A stretch of DNA of 14,363 nucleotides from Candidatus Latescibacterota bacterium. GTDB taxonomy: Bacteria; JAAXHH01; JACQVL01. Positions 1,056 through 7,696 of this stretch are shown piece after piece. How positions within the stretch are numbered: the stretch's first letter is position 1; each line of letters opens with the position of its first letter. A program made the translations under genes and the position numbers. Under the pieces are notes generated by a model. That model saw only the letters and a list, made by a program, of their open reading frames with translations. It did no database searches and was not told where the DNA came from. The stretch spans positions 1-14,363 of the forward strand of contig JACQVL010000346.1 in assembly GCA_016209865.1 (NCBI GenBank). Direction: 5' to 3'.

Positions 1056-3089
1056 ATGACCATCCCACTCCTGCCGGATATCGTCATCATCCTCGGGCTG
1101 TCGAGTGCCGTCCTCTTCCTCTGTCATCGACTGCACATCCCGACGATCGTGGGGTTTCTGTTGACCGGTCTCCTGGCAGGGCCGCATGGGTTCAGGGTCG
1201 TCAAGGCGGTGCATGACGTGGAGGTTCTGGCTGAAATCGGGGTGGTGTTGCTGCTCTTCACGATCGGCCTGGAATTCTCGCTGCACAGTCTGTTTCAGAT
1301 CAAGCGAGCGGCCGTGATCGGAGGGGCGTTGCAGGTCATCCTGACGAGCCTGGCCGGGTTTGCCATCGCCTCGAAGCTCGGCCAGCCTGTCGGGGTTGCG
1401 GTCTTGCTCGGGTTCTTGATTTCCCTCAGCAGCACAGCTATCGTTCTCGGCTTGCTGCAAGAACGGGCGGAGATAGACAGCGCGCACGGACGGGTCTCGC
1501 TGGCGATCTTGATTTTTCAAGACATCATGACCGTCCCGATGATGCTGGTGACCCCGCTGCTGGCAGGAACCGCCGCCTCGATCGGAGAATCCCTTCTCAT
1601 CCTTGCGATCAAAGGGATAGGGATTATCGGGCTGGTCATCGTGAGCGCTCGATGGGTGGTGCCCTGGCTGCTCTATCAGGTCGCCCGGACGCGAAGCCGG
1701 GAATTTTTTCTGCTCAGCATCGTCGTCATCTGCCTCTCCGTCGCATGGCTGACGTCCAGCCTGGGACTGTCCCTCGCGTTAGGAGCCTTCCTGGCCGGAC
1801 TGATCATCTCAGAGTCTGAGTACAGCGACCAGGCGCTCGGCAATATCATCCCGTTCCGGGATGTGTTCACGAGCTTCTTTTTCGTGTCCATCGGTATGCT
1901 CCTGAACATCGGGTTTCTGCTGCGCCAGCCTGGGGTGATCGTGTTGACGGCTGCAGGGGTGCTGATCATCAAATCTCTGATCGCCGGGCTCGCCGTCCTG
2001 CTCCTGGGACTTCCGCTGCGCACGGCGGTGTTAGTGGGGATGGCGCTCTGCCAGATCGGGGAGTTTTCCTTCATCCTGTCGAAGGCCGGGGTGGAATCAG
2101 GAGTCTTGAACGACGCGATTTACCAGCGTTTTTTGGCCGTCTCGGTGGTGACGATGGCGGCGGCTCCGTTCATTCTGACCCTGGCCCCGCGCGTCGCCGG
2201 CCTTATCATCCGGTTCCCCCTGCCCGGACGGATCAAATCAGGCTGGTATGAGATGCCCGCAGTCACAGGAACCTATCCCAAAGACTACCTGCAGGACCAT
2301 CTGGTGATCATCGGGTTCGGAGTGAACGGCCGGAATGTCGCGCGCGCGGCCAGGATTGCCATGATCCCATACGTGATCATCGAGATGAACCCGGAGACCG
2401 TCCGGACTGAACGCGCGAACGGAGAGCCGATCTCCTACGGGGATGCCACACAGGAGGCGGTGCTGGGGGCGGTCGGGATCGCCGAGGCGCGGGTGGCGGT
2501 GGTCGCCGTCGCCGACCCGGTGACCACCCGGAGCATTACCGCCACCGTCCGCAGACTGAGTCCCAAAGCCTACCTGATCGCACGTACCCGGTACCTGCGC
2601 GAGATGAAGCCGTTGTATGACTTAGGGGCGAACGAGGTCATCCCGGAGGAGTTTGAGACGTCGATCGAGATCTTCACCCGTGTGCTGGAGCGGTATCTCA
2701 TCCCCAGGAACGATATCGAAGCGTTCATCACGGAAGTGCGATCCGACGGCTATGAGATGTTGCGCAGTCTCTCCAAAGGGTCGACGTCATTGGCTGATTT
2801 GAAGCTCCATCTCCCTGATATCGAAATCTGTACATTCCGGGTGAGCGGACGATCTCCTCTTGTCGGAAAAACGCTCGCCCAGGCTGAATTGAGGACGAGA
2901 TACGGGGTGACGGTTCTCTTGATTCAACGCGATGCACAGACTATCCCCAACCCGGATGGCACGATGCTGCTCTGCGCGGACGATGTCGCCGTGATTCTTG
3001 GCCGGCCGGAGGAGATTGCAGAGGTGGTGGAGGTATTCTATGGGGCAGGGGAAGAGGACACCAGTTCGTCGCCCGTGGGTTCAGGGTGA
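1056..3089 (+). CDS. CPA2-family K+(or Na+)/H+ antiporter with TrkA-N and TrkA-C domains (KefB/KefC type)
   Basis: This 677-residue inner-membrane protein is a monovalent cation:proton antiporter of the KefB/KefC/YbaL group. Residues about 8-375 form the sodium/hydrogen-exchanger domain with a dozen or so membrane segments. Conserved features include GFLLTGLLAGPHG (33-45), FTIGLEFSL (68-76) and the FQD motif at 154-156 typical of Kef proteins. A soluble TrkA-N (RCK) nucleotide-binding domain follows from about 413, with the dinucleotide loop GFGVNG at 420-425. A TrkA-C domain spans about 590-665. Such proteins usually export K+ in exchange for H+; ion choice cannot be read from the sequence. 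The start is the only suitable ATG before the first membrane helix. It has no adjacent Shine-Dalgarno sequence; AAGGAG lies 36 bases upstream, beyond a repeat. Nearby Kdp-like and KimA-like genes support a potassium role. Confidence 0.92.
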   Translation: MTIPLLPDIVIILGLSSAVLFLCHRLHIPTIVGFLLTGLLAGPHGFRVVKAVHDVEVLAEIGVVLLLFTIGLEFSLHSLFQIKRAAVIGGALQVILTSLAGFAIASKLGQPVGVAVLLGFLISLSSTAIVLGLLQERAEIDSAHGRVSLAILIFQDIMTVPMMLVTPLLAGTAASIGESLLILAIKGIGIIGLVIVSARWVVPWLLYQVARTRSREFFLLSIVVICLSVAWLTSSLGLSLALGAFLAGLIISESEYSDQALGNIIPFRDVFTSFFFVSIGMLLNIGFLLRQPGVIVLTAAGVLIIKSLIAGLAVLLLGLPLRTAVLVGMALCQIGEFSFILSKAGVESGVLNDAIYQRFLAVSVVTMAAAPFILTLAPRVAGLIIRFPLPGRIKSGWYEMPAVTGTYPKDYLQDHLVIIGFGVNGRNVARAARIAMIPYVIIEMNPETVRTERANGEPISYGDATQEAVLGAVGIAEARVAVVAVADPVTTRSITATVRRLSPKAYLIARTRYLREMKPLYDLGANEVIPEEFETSIEIFTRVLERYLIPRNDIEAFITEVRSDGYEMLRSLSKGSTSLADLKLHLPDIEICTFRVSGRSPLVGKTLAQAELRTRYGVTVLLIQRDAQTIPNPDGTMLLCADDVAVILGRPEEIAEVVEVFYGAGEEDTSSSPVGSG

Positions 3090-3390: not shown

Positions 3391-3418
3391 ATTCACGATT
3401 CAGGACGCAGGATGAAGG
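3391..3418. repeat. Degenerate tandem heptamer array, ATTCAGG-like
   Basis: ATTCACG (3391-3397), ATTCAGG (3398-3404), ACGCAGG (3405-3411) and ATGAAGG (3412-3418) line up as four decaying 7-bp units. They lie directly after the stop codon of the small protein gene and run into the terminator stem. Divergence between units is high, so this is a weaker call than the other arrays. Confidence 0.5.
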
Positions 3419-3449
3419 GGGGGGTTGATGAAACCCGCCCCTTTTTCTT
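3415..3449 (+). terminator. Rho-independent terminator after the small cysteine protein gene
   Basis: AAGGGGGGGG followed by TT (3415-3426) can pair with AA, ACCC, G and CCCCTT further on, around the loop GATG (3427-3430). The stem has one mismatch and one bulge. A run TTTTTCTTT (3442-3450) follows. It closes transcription just before the histidine kinase gene and argues against that gene starting at the ATG at 3412. Confidence 0.7.
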
Positions 3450-3459
3450 TGGGAACGCG

Positions 3460-4953
3460 ATGAAAAGATACGGGATCAGCCTCATGTTAGTCATCATGGC
3501 GTCAGTGATCGGTGAGTGGGTGCACCGGAGGTTTGAGCCGACGAATCTTGTCATGCTCTACCTGGCGGTGGTGGTGATCGCTGCCACGTTTTTAGGCCGA
3601 GGGCCTTCGATCTTCGCCTCGATCCTCAGCGTGCTGGCGTTTGATGTCCTGTTCGTGCCCCCTCGGTTTTCGTTCACCGTGTACGATACGCAGTATTTGA
3701 TGACGTTTGCCGGCCTGCTGATCGTGGGGCTGATCATCAGCGAGTTGACATCCAGAACGCGTGAGCATGCGATTCAGGCACTGCAACGGGAAGCCGGAGC
3801 ACTCGCTCTCTATCGGTTGAGCCGTGATCTGTCGAATACCCTGGACTTCGCGTCCGTCCAGCATGTGATCGAAAACCACGTCGCCGAAGTGTTTCAGGGA
3901 CGCAGCGTCCTGTTCATCAGGGAGGCTGAAACATTCCATCTCGTCCAGGGGACGATAGAGATCACGGTCGATGACAATGAGGGAGCGGTGGCGAACTGGG
4001 TGGTTGAGCACAACCAAAAGGCCGGATGGGGGACTCAGGTTCTTTCTGCCGCCCGCATGATGTATTTGCCCCTTTCAAGTGGTCAGAAAACCTTAGGGGT
4101 TCTGGGGGTGCGCTTCGATGACAAAGAGCATCCCCCGACCCGGCAGAACATCCAATCTCTTGAAACCCTGGCCAATCAGTCGGGCCTGGCGATTGAGCGT
4201 GTGATGCTGGCTGAGGAAACCCGGAAAATGGAATTATTGAGAGAAAAAGAAAATCTCCACACCGCTCTCCTGAATTCGATTTCACATGACTTGCGGACGC
4301 CCCTCGTAGCGATTACAGGGGCGTTAAGCCATCTGGTGGGCGACCAGCATCTTCTCGAAAATCAAGCGTATAAAGAATTGATAGAAACGGCTCACGAAGA
4401 AGCCAGCCGGCTCAATCGAATCGTGACGAATTGGTTGGATATGACACGGGTTGAGGCAGGGGCCTTGAAGGTGTCTCGCCAGTCGTGTGATGTACGAGAT
4501 GTCATCGGTGTCGTGCTGGGACAGTTGGATGAAACGCTCGTGAACCGTCCGGTGCATGTCAAGATGCCTGATGGCCTGCCTGATGTTGAGATGGACTTTT
4601 CCTTGATGATGAAGGTGTTGATCAACATCGTTGACAATGCCGTGAAATATTCCAGCCCCGATGCCCCGATTGAGATCGAAGCCCGAATAGTCGGAGATCA
4701 GTTGGAAATCACCGTCACAGATCGAGGAGTCGGGATTCCCGAGGAGGATTTGACGAGGATATTCGATAAATTTTACCGTGTGACACGACCCATCAACGTT
4801 GCGGGTACCGGGTTGGGCCTCCCGATTTGTAAAGGCATCATCGAAGCTCATCACGGAACGATCACGGCTGAAAACCGTCCGGGCGGGGGGACGATTCTTC
4901 GTATGACTCTCCCGAAGAAGGACACAATGAGGCACGCGAGCGATGGCAACTGA
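3460..4953 (+). CDS. KdpD-like sensor histidine kinase lacking the N-terminal KdpD domain
   Basis: This 497-residue membrane kinase corresponds to the C-terminal half of KdpD, the sensor for potassium limitation and osmotic stress. Residues about 4-95 form the DUF4118 membrane block of four helices, including NLVMLYLAVVV and VLFVPPRFSFTVYDTQYLMTF. A GAF-like domain spans about 115-250. The HisKA domain has phosphoacceptor His276 (SISHDLRTPL). The ATPase domain has the N box around Asn393 (VDNAVKY), the G1 box at Asp421 (DRGVGI) and the G2 box GTGLGL at 449-454. The KdpD sensor and USP domains that occupy the first half of E. coli KdpD are missing. I chose ATG 3460 because it falls just before the first helix and after the terminator; ATG 3412 would add 16 residues encoded by the terminator. 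It overlaps the response-regulator gene by 11 bases, so the two are co-translated partners. kdpFABC is not in the window. Confidence 0.88.
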   Translation: MKRYGISLMLVIMASVIGEWVHRRFEPTNLVMLYLAVVVIAATFLGRGPSIFASILSVLAFDVLFVPPRFSFTVYDTQYLMTFAGLLIVGLIISELTSRTREHAIQALQREAGALALYRLSRDLSNTLDFASVQHVIENHVAEVFQGRSVLFIREAETFHLVQGTIEITVDDNEGAVANWVVEHNQKAGWGTQVLSAARMMYLPLSSGQKTLGVLGVRFDDKEHPPTRQNIQSLETLANQSGLAIERVMLAEETRKMELLREKENLHTALLNSISHDLRTPLVAITGALSHLVGDQHLLENQAYKELIETAHEEASRLNRIVTNWLDMTRVEAGALKVSRQSCDVRDVIGVVLGQLDETLVNRPVHVKMPDGLPDVEMDFSLMMKVLINIVDNAVKYSSPDAPIEIEARIVGDQLEITVTDRGVGIPEEDLTRIFDKFYRVTRPINVAGTGLGLPICKGIIEAHHGTITAENRPGGGTILRMTLPKKDTMRHASDGN

Positions 4954-5656
4954 GCAAACAGCCCAGGCGGTACGAGTCCTGATCGTTGAAGACGAGCCCT
5001 CCATTCGTCGATTCCTGAAGGCAAGCCTGGCTTCGCATGGGTATGCGGTCTTTGAGGCTCAGGACGCGCAAGAGGGGCTTGAGGGATCGGTCTCATCCCA
5101 TCCGGACGTCATCATTCTCGACCTGGGGTTGCCGGATTTGGACGGCCTTGAGGTCATCACACGCATCCGTGTTCGATCCACGACCCCTATTATCATTCTC
5201 TCCGTGAGAGAAGATGAATCGGATAAAGTCATGGCGCTGGATGCTGGGGCGGATGATTATTTGACGAAGCCGTTCCGGGAAGGAGAATTGTTGGCGCGGC
5301 TCAGAGCCGTGCTCCGGCGTTTTGCGTTGCCGGAAGAAGCGGCGGTGTTCAGAATCGGCCATCTGACGGTGGATTTCTCCAGGCATCTCGTTCACATGAA
5401 GGATCAAGTCGTGGGGTTAACCCCCACAGAATATGAGCTGTTGAAAGTGTTGGTGTCACACGCAGGCAAGGTGGTGACCCACCGGCAACTGTTACGTGAA
5501 GTCTGGAACAAGACCGAAGATTATGAAGGCGGGTCACACTTGTTGCGCGTGACGGTCAGTAATCTCAGGAACAAACTCGAACCTCAGCCGGAACGTCCCA
5601 CCTATATCTTGACAGAACCAGGAGTCGGCTATCGCCTCCATGCCGATTCGTTTTGA
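4943..5656 (+). CDS. kdpE: KdpE-like response regulator (OmpR/PhoB family)
   Basis: This 237-residue regulator has a receiver domain at about 10-122 and a winged-helix DNA-binding domain (Trans_reg_C) at about 138-232. The acidic pocket is Glu16-Asp17, the phosphoacceptor is Asp60 (IILDLGLPDLDG), the switch residue is Ser87 and the conserved lysine is Lys109 (LTKPF). The receiver sequence, with TPIIILSVRE and DKVMALDAGADDYLTKPF, and the C-terminal LTEPGVGYRL are typical of KdpE. The start overlaps the end of the histidine kinase gene by 11 bases, the usual kdpD-kdpE arrangement. Known KdpE proteins activate the kdpFABC potassium pump; here the nearest potassium gene is the KimA-like transporter downstream. 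Whether it regulates that gene is inference. No clear terminator follows it. Confidence 0.87.
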   Translation: MATEQTAQAVRVLIVEDEPSIRRFLKASLASHGYAVFEAQDAQEGLEGSVSSHPDVIILDLGLPDLDGLEVITRIRVRSTTPIIILSVREDESDKVMALDAGADDYLTKPFREGELLARLRAVLRRFALPEEAAVFRIGHLTVDFSRHLVHMKDQVVGLTPTEYELLKVLVSHAGKVVTHRQLLREVWNKTEDYEGGSHLLRVTVSNLRNKLEPQPERPTYILTEPGVGYRLHADSF

Positions 5657-5663
5657 CGCATTA

Positions 5664-5692
5664 TTGACTCCCCTGCTGTCCTGTTCGATGAT
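5664..5692 (+). promoter_or_regulatory. Candidate sigma-70 promoter for the riboswitch-kimA transcript
   Basis: TTGACT (5664-5669) and GATGAT (5687-5692) are separated by 17 bases. The -35 box matches five of six consensus bases and the -10 box four of six. The predicted start, near 5699, is about ten bases before the riboswitch aptamer, as expected for its own promoter. Confidence 0.5.
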
Positions 5693-5708
5693 AAATTTCC
5701 GTAAAATT

Positions 5709-5880
5709 GAGCTCGCCTAATCCGGGCCACTGCTCGGAACGGGGGACTACTGACACCCGCTGGACAGGTCCGGCCGGGTGACCGGGGTGTATCCTGCGCG
5801 TCAAGGACGCAGGACGGATACCTTTCGTCCGAACCCGTCAACTAACCCCGTCGGCGCAGGAAGGAGCCGTGGAGCGCGTG
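5709..5880 (+). ncRNA. Cyclic di-AMP riboswitch (ydaO/yuaA class)
   Basis: The leader contains the conserved ydaO/yuaA blocks in order: CGCCTAATCCG (5714-5724), ACGGGGGAC (5739-5747), CCGGGGTGTATCC (5782-5794), GGATACCTTTCGTCC (5816-5830), GAACCCGTCAACTAACCCCG (5831-5850), GGCG (5853-5856) and GGAAGGAG (5859-5866). Helices can be drawn: P1 CGCC/GGCG; CACCCG (5754-5759) with CGGGTG (5775-5780); TCCTGCG (5792-5798) with CGCAGGA (5808-5814); CGGA (5815-5818) with TCCG (5828-5831). CCTT (5821-5824) can form the known pseudoknot with AAGG (5861-5864). This class binds c-di-AMP and usually turns expression off. A terminator hairpin follows directly, and the controlled gene encodes a KimA-like potassium transporter, a classic target. 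The boundaries are approximate; the class assignment is strong. Confidence 0.93.
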
Positions 5881-5884
5881 TGAC

Positions 5885-5912
5885 AACCGCAGACGGACTC
5901 TGCGGTTTTTTT
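5885..5912 (+). terminator. Intrinsic terminator, expression platform of the c-di-AMP riboswitch
   Basis: AACCGCAGA (5885-5893) and TCTGCGGTT (5899-5907) form a perfect nine-base-pair stem around the loop CGGAC, and a run of seven T (5906-5912) completes it. It lies between the aptamer and the start codon, so ligand-stabilised termination is the likely mechanism. No antiterminator pairing was confirmed by eye. Confidence 0.9.
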
Positions 5913-5962: not shown

Positions 5963-7696
5963 ATGCTCCATCATGCGAGACGGCCACGGAACGTGAATTC
6001 GTCGCGTGCCGCAGCCATGCTGTACGGGGATTGGGGGACGAGCAAGGCGTACGTCACCGGCATCGCCTTTGCCTTAGCTGGCTATACCTCGCTGTACCTC
6101 ATCATCGGGATGGCGGTGCTGACGGCCATCGTCGGGACCAACTACATCTGGATCTGCAAGTATTACCCGGACGGCGGCGGGGTCTACTCGTCCGTCCGGC
6201 ACCGTTCCCGGACGTTAGCAGTCATCGGAGCGCTCCTGTTAGTGGCGGATTATGTCGTCACCGCGGCGTTGAGTTCGTTGGACGCGTTCCACTACCTCGG
6301 GGTGGCCAACCCGGAATGGTGGGCGATCGGGGCGATCATCCTCATCGGCCTGATCAACACGGTCGGCCCGAAGCACAGCGGCGAGCTGGCGATCTTCCTC
6401 GCCCTGCCGGCCGTGCTCGTCGTCCTCGCCCTCGTCGCCGCCGCCATCCCCCATCTCCATCAGGCGGCCATCCAGCCCCCAACCGGCGGCCTCACCCACA
6501 CCTGGCTGAACTTCGTCGGCATCATCCTCGCCCTCTCCGGGGTGGAGGCGATCGCCAACATGACCGGGGTGATGCGGGTCGACCCGGACAGCACGGACGA
6601 GCATCCGTCCGTCCACAAGACCGCCCGGCGGGCGATCCTGCCGGTCCTGCTCGAAGTGACCCTGATGACCGTCTTGCTCGGCTGGGCGATGCACGCCATT
6701 CCCAACCTCTCCGGCCACACCGAAGACATGCTCCGATTCATGGGCCAGTACTACGTCGGGGACTGGTTTGCCCGGATCGTGAGCGTCGTGTTCGCGTTGC
6801 TCCTGCTCTCCGCCTCCAACACCGCCCTCGTCGACCTGATCGCCGTGATGTACTCGATGTCTCGCGACCGGGAGATGCCGTTTTCCTTCAGCCGGCTTAA
6901 TACGTACGGGGTGCCGTGGCTGCCCCTGATTGTGGCCACCGCCCTGCCGGTGATCGTCCTGACGATCGAGCACGACCTGGAGCGCTTGGCCGCGCTGTAC
7001 GCGATCGGGGTGATCGGCGCGATCACGATCAACCTCGGGTCGTGTTCGACCAACCGGCATCTGCCCATGCCGAAAGTCGAGCGGGTCATCATGGGCGGGA
7101 CGTTCGTCCTGCTGACGATGATCGAATTGACGATTGCGTACGAGAAACGCCATGCCCTCATCTTCGCCGCGATGGTGCTGACGGTGGGGTTGATCACGCG
7201 GAGTTTCGCACGGCGGTTCAGACCGGTGGAACAGGCCATGACTCTCGAAGCGCCGGTGCTCCGGCAACTCCAGCCGTTCCAGCGTGCGATGGCAACGCCG
7301 GTATCAGCCATCATGGTGGCGGTCCGGGGGGTGACGGAGACGCTGCGATTTGCGATCGAAGAAGCGAGGCTCCGGGACGCGACCCTGTACGTGTTGTTCG
7401 TCCGGGAGATCGCCATCCGGGAGGCGGTGGACTTCACCCTCGACCAGGACCCCACGGCCCAGGCTGTCTTCACCGCGGCTAGACAATTAGCCGATGGCGT
7501 CCCGGTCATCCCGCTGTACTGCGTGAGCGATGATGCGGCGGGGATGATCCTCGACCAGGCGGCCACGCTTGGGGTGGATTATCTGATCGTCGGGAGTTCA
7601 GCTCGGGGGCGACTCGTTCATCTGTTGCGTGGGAATGTCATCCAGGAAGTGGCCGACAAACTGCCGGAAGAAATCAGGTTGATCATCCATGGATAA
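5963..7696 (+). CDS. kimA: KimA-like K+/H+ symporter (APC superfamily) with C-terminal USP-like domain
   Basis: This 577-residue transporter resembles Bacillus subtilis KimA (YdaO), a high-affinity potassium-proton symporter. About twelve membrane helices fill residues 25-410. As I recall the KimA structure, its ion-site residues D36, Y43, D117, Y118, T121, S125, T230 and E233 match D23, Y30, D96, Y97, T100, S104, S182 and E185 here, with the same spacing within each group. The loop YPDGGGVY (68-75) is also conserved. A cytoplasmic universal-stress-protein-like domain spans about 430-577, but its nucleotide loop (VGSSARGRLVHLLRGN) departs from the standard G-2x-G-9x-G-S/T pattern. ATG 5963 is supported by AAGGAG at 5952-5957 with a five-base spacer. 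The leader carries a c-di-AMP riboswitch, fitting repression of potassium uptake when potassium is plentiful. A related amino-acid permease is possible but less likely. Confidence 0.85.
   Translation: MLHHARRPRNVNSSRAAAMLYGDWGTSKAYVTGIAFALAGYTSLYLIIGMAVLTAIVGTNYIWICKYYPDGGGVYSSVRHRSRTLAVIGALLLVADYVVTAALSSLDAFHYLGVANPEWWAIGAIILIGLINTVGPKHSGELAIFLALPAVLVVLALVAAAIPHLHQAAIQPPTGGLTHTWLNFVGIILALSGVEAIANMTGVMRVDPDSTDEHPSVHKTARRAILPVLLEVTLMTVLLGWAMHAIPNLSGHTEDMLRFMGQYYVGDWFARIVSVVFALLLLSASNTALVDLIAVMYSMSRDREMPFSFSRLNTYGVPWLPLIVATALPVIVLTIEHDLERLAALYAIGVIGAITINLGSCSTNRHLPMPKVERVIMGGTFVLLTMIELTIAYEKRHALIFAAMVLTVGLITRSFARRFRPVEQAMTLEAPVLRQLQPFQRAMATPVSAIMVAVRGVTETLRFAIEEARLRDATLYVLFVREIAIREAVDFTLDQDPTAQAVFTAARQLADGVPVIPLYCVSDDAAGMILDQAATLGVDYLIVGSSARGRLVHLLRGNVIQEVADKLPEEIRLIIHG

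Follow-up and report, generated by a model that had tools for sequence, protein, structure and literature searches.

A c-di-AMP riboswitch precedes the gene of a predicted KimA-related potassium transporter in a Candidatus Latescibacterota bacterium

In Bacillus subtilis, an aptamer of the ydaO/yuaA class (Rfam RF00379) lies in the leader of the gene for the transporter KimA, and transcription proceeds past this riboswitch only at low c-di-AMP (PMC5573677). In the kdp operon of Bacillus thuringiensis, c-di-AMP promotes termination before the potassium importer KdpFABC (PMC6488665), and the shutting off of high-affinity potassium uptake by c-di-AMP is an established logic (PMC5573677, PMC6488665). 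Riboswitches for c-di-AMP have already been published for potassium transporters of Gram-negative phyla (PMC6488665), and a 2019 paper cites such potassium-transporter riboswitches from six phyla. In the present study, a contig of 14,363 nt from a Candidatus Latescibacterota bacterium (JACQVL010000346.1, referred to at its full length as the window) was analysed, in which an aptamer of the same class precedes a transporter gene. We consider it highly probable that this c-di-AMP riboswitch regulates transcription of a proton-coupled potassium importer related to KimA, in a diderm host and with c-di-AMP leading to termination.

A preliminary description of the window, made from the sequence alone, had placed a ydaO/yuaA aptamer followed by a terminator at 5709-5912, before a KimA-like gene. 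In cmscan, an aptamer at 5704-5871 (+) was aligned to RF00379 over its full length (model positions 1-134 of 134) with 64.9 bits and E 2e-13, where the gathering score is 38 bits, and this was the only Rfam match above threshold within the window. The earlier span is thus made up of the aptamer and an intrinsic terminator at 5885-5912 (+), with a stem of 9 bp (5885-5907), a loop of 5 nt and a T-run. Just 5′ of the aptamer, a consensus scan gave a sigma-70-like promoter candidate, TTGACT-17-GATGAT (5664-5692, +), with 9 of 12 consensus matches, 0.3 being expected by shuffling. The KimA-related gene (5963-7696, +) starts 92 nt after the aptamer end, which places the aptamer in its leader, and an AAGGAG tract stands within a few bases before the ATG at 5963. 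These results confirm that a genuine c-di-AMP riboswitch lies 5′ of the predicted potassium-transporter gene.

The window belongs to a draft genome of 3.75 Mb in 356 contigs (83% complete), which contains a single other RF00379 match (61.2 bits), also 5′ of a KimA-related gene, whose product is a paralog with 77% protein identity to the window transporter. This second copy has its own terminator and its own promoter candidate (TTTACA-17-TATATT) 5′ of its aptamer. In comparisons of the two loci, the aptamers were 81% and the terminators 93% identical, the 100 bases upstream were 40% and the stretches from terminator to start 43% identical, and random pairs of 100-mers had a mean identity of 45%. 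Thus, aptamer and terminator have been kept with flanks at random level, which is more than chance and indicates that both elements are under selection.

The 577-aa product of the window gene is predicted to be a KimA-related potassium transporter with an APC transmembrane domain and a cytosolic USP-type domain. A profile was built from 16 full-length sequences of the own genome, one unclassified bacterium and the verrucomicrobial phylum, and this profile ranked B. subtilis KimA (6s3k) first at E 1.4e-14, the next transporter being a lysine permease at 0.018. Moreover, hhalign related this 16-member clade to a verrucomicrobial KimA-type set with a probability of 97%, and the first member of that set matches 6s3k at 6e-58. 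Structure prediction from 4 sequences was of too poor quality for use; an AlphaFold2 model from 16 sequences reached a mean pLDDT of 79, and KimA was its best fold match in Foldseek. In VIA-align, KimA had a Z of 45.8 over residues 17-577, followed by amino-acid transporters (Z 38 and below) that cover the membrane domain only. The two-domain match to KimA has a large rmsd of 12-13 A, probably owing to a different relative placement of the domains in the monomer model and the KimA dimer.

The preliminary description had claimed a match to KimA at eight ion-site positions, seven identical and one Ser for Thr, and the profile alignment bears this out: the KimA/window pairs are D36/D23, Y43/Y30, D117/D96, T121/T100, S125/S104, T230/S192, E233/E195 and Y377/Y346. 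Among the residues of the ion/proton site itself (D36, Y43, T121, T230, E233, Y377), five are identical and T230 is Ser; the roles of these residues in KimA have been described (PMC6994465, PMC10284832), and a T230A variant of KimA still supported growth (PMC6994465). D23, Y30, T100, S104, S192, E195 and Y346 do not vary across the 16 clade members, and D96 is replaced in only one of them, by N. With B. subtilis KimA (PDB 6s3k, 8b70, 8b71) the window transporter shares the two-domain fold and is only 16-19% identical in structural alignment. The KimA identity proposed earlier therefore stands as a relationship, by profile, fold and ion site, not as a Bacillus-type KimA; the evidence supports a remote relative of KimA that forms a separate clade. 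At Arg337, a residue of KimA in contact with c-di-AMP, the window protein has Phe307. Arg337 increases affinity, yet inhibition is possible without it (PMC10284832), so Phe307 weakens only the idea of direct c-di-AMP sensing by the protein. A YGDxGTS motif in the clade's first transmembrane helix (window 5981-6052, residues 7-30) resembles a motif of Kup, which reads FGDIGTSPLY in a verrucomicrobial Kup; a profile comparison of the clade with Kup was weak.

Upstream of the leader, the window encodes a CPA2 monovalent cation:proton antiporter with TrkA_N and TrkA_C (RCK_C) domains (1056-3089, +; KefC/YbaL-like in NCBIfam, under the equivalog cut-offs). It is followed by a KdpD-like histidine kinase (3412-4953, +) with DUF4118, HisKA and HATPase domains and without the N-terminal KdpD/USP sensor half; the match to KdpD, its best NCBIfam model, is confined to model positions 400-884 of 895. 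A KdpE-like response regulator (4943-5656, +) lies immediately 5′ of the leader; KdpE is its best NCBIfam model, with 238 bits, below the equivalog cut-off of 325 bits. These genes would fit a potassium-homeostasis neighbourhood. The kdp operon of B. thuringiensis is without kdpDE genes and has KdpFABC downstream of its riboswitch (PMC6488665), whereas in the window KdpD/KdpE-like genes adjoin the switch and a KimA relative follows it.

A diadenylate cyclase had been predicted to exist elsewhere in the genome, and one DAC-domain protein was found (PF02457, 141 bits). It scores 196.7 bits against the CdaA equivalog TIGR00159 (cut-off 188.8) and slightly under the cut-off of the CdaA_N model; its N-terminus is a membrane region and it carries the DGA and RHR motifs. 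In this protein, DAC and YbbR/CdaR are fused in one polypeptide (L004:4916-6613, contig C349 of the own genome G000, minus strand). A DAC protein is present in 15 of 16 genomes of the phylum, as open frames of 517-612 aa, and two others checked in Pfam are DAC-YbbR fusions as well; no description of such a fusion stood out in a literature search. As to the DHH-type phosphodiesterases that were also to be looked for, three DHHA1 matches were obtained in the genome, namely RecJ, a 904-aa frame and a 374-aa DHH-DHHA1 protein, the last being a candidate phosphodiesterase; a PgpH-type phosphodiesterase was not found there. The genome also encodes Omp85 proteins, one of them an 834-aa BamA-like protein, which indicates a diderm envelope and supports the earlier guess of a Gram-negative host. 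Neither of the two outcomes named beforehand as refuting the earlier description, a lack of a significant RF00379 score or of a diadenylate cyclase gene, was thus obtained.

In the mechanism that we propose, ample potassium would lead the CdaA-type cyclase to make c-di-AMP, which would be bound by the aptamer, so that the terminator hairpin would form and the transporter gene would not be transcribed; at low c-di-AMP, RNA polymerase would read through into the gene. The conserved terminator and the analogy with B. subtilis suggest such an OFF switch by termination for potassium uptake, which is the most likely mode and would act in the same direction as in B. thuringiensis. The minimum-energy folds gave no antiterminator that would exclude the terminator of both copies, so the direction of switching is inferred. 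Ligand binding and potassium as both substrate and signal are likewise inferred. A purine tract (GGAGUC, paired with GACUCU in the second copy) was considered as a shared antiterminator; it makes 5 of the 6 pairs in the window and is an unconvincing candidate.

The lack of an identified, mutually exclusive antiterminator would also agree with a switch working the other way round (c-di-AMP turning it ON), or with one acting on translation instead of termination. For the window copy, folding also gave a 10-bp helix (5865-5874 paired with 5898-5907) as a competitor of the terminator, the two folds lying within 1.4 kcal/mol of each other there and 5 apart in the second copy, and several verrucomicrobial relatives, inspected by eye, show no clear terminator directly behind the aptamer. 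We nevertheless consider this reading unlikely, given the selectively conserved 9-bp terminator with T-run in both copies and the known OFF logic cited above. Slightly less probable still is that the riboswitch is genuine and the controlled gene carries another substrate, e.g. an amino acid, its likeness to KimA being generic to the APC superfamily. Pfam calls the protein AA_permease_2 plus Usp, single-sequence phmmer gave no KimA match in PDB even at E 10, and a 4-member profile matched the lysine permease ahead of KimA. Both search results were due to insufficient depth and were reversed by the profile from 16 sequences; moreover, amino-acid transporters leave the second domain of the fold uncovered, and the equivalents of Asp36, Tyr43, Thr121, Glu233 and Tyr377 do not vary in the clade.

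Given so fragmented and incomplete a draft, cyclase and riboswitch could also come from different organisms through mis-binning of the contig. This is very improbable: two riboswitch-transporter loci are found on separate contigs, the GC content is 0.61 in the window, 0.63 at the second locus and 0.635 on the cyclase contig, and a genome of the same order (G014) has a transporter 64-73% identical together with the same cyclase fusion. An OFF switch before a KimA-related importer remains our preferred reading. Counting against it, the nearest clade transporters outside the own genome are without a detectable aptamer: none was seen beside the broken transporter copy of G014, and for the other close relative (L006), which belongs to a different small phylum, the aptamer was absent among 4 genomes.

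Among 16 genomes of the window's phylum, the aptamer was found in the own genome only, and the transporter clade in the own genome and G014 only; no plasmid relatives were found. In the verrucomicrobial phylum, RF00379 was detected in 14 of 288 genomes (13 over threshold). As in the window, aptamers of this Gram-negative phylum (L046-L059) precede genes for potassium transport, but the downstream genes, counted on the aptamer's strand, are mostly of other types: KimA-type in L049, L052 (by motif and Pfam only), L054, L057 and L059, Kup in L048, KdpA in L055, and a Na/H exchanger-family antiporter in L046. A pairing of KimA with this riboswitch outside Firmicutes, as noted earlier, does occur, but with its repeated verrucomicrobial occurrence and the published cases (PMC6488665) it is not rare enough to surprise. 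The window arrangement is a new instance, in a new lineage, of a known arrangement, and only mildly surprising; it would add a sparsely sampled Gram-negative phylum, whose other examined genomes are without the riboswitch, to those in which potassium uptake is under c-di-AMP control. It also connects this class of riboswitch with a divergent clade related to KimA; that c-di-AMP shuts off potassium import is in itself known logic.

In one verrucomicrobial genome (G183, L053/L060), a transporter of the window's own clade lies behind the aptamer. This aptamer seemed to stand directly before a KimA-clade gene in L053, until the orientation showed that gene (L060:8704-10881, +) to be divergent; the real operon (L060:5404-8862, minus strand) consists of the aptamer, a BBP2 outer-membrane porin gene, which has no counterpart between aptamer and transporter in the window, and another transporter gene of the clade, the two gene ends overlapping. 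From this gene order, the operon may possibly serve outer-plus-inner-membrane potassium uptake. Tentatively, and with somewhat more doubt than confidence, we suggest that the clade (RPRNV...YGDWGTSKAYV, with YGDxGTS shared with Kup) is an unrecognised second KimA subfamily in at least three diderm phyla, preceded by c-di-AMP riboswitches in at least two, in one case within an operon that also encodes an outer-membrane porin.

SPFH/Band 7-type genes follow the aptamer in four further verrucomicrobial genomes (L050, L051, L056 and L058; L050 and L058 were checked in Pfam), which is an unexpected target class for c-di-AMP. In another, a strong RF00379 aptamer (86 bits) lies 63 nt 5′ of a citrate synthase gene (L047:1501-2772, +).
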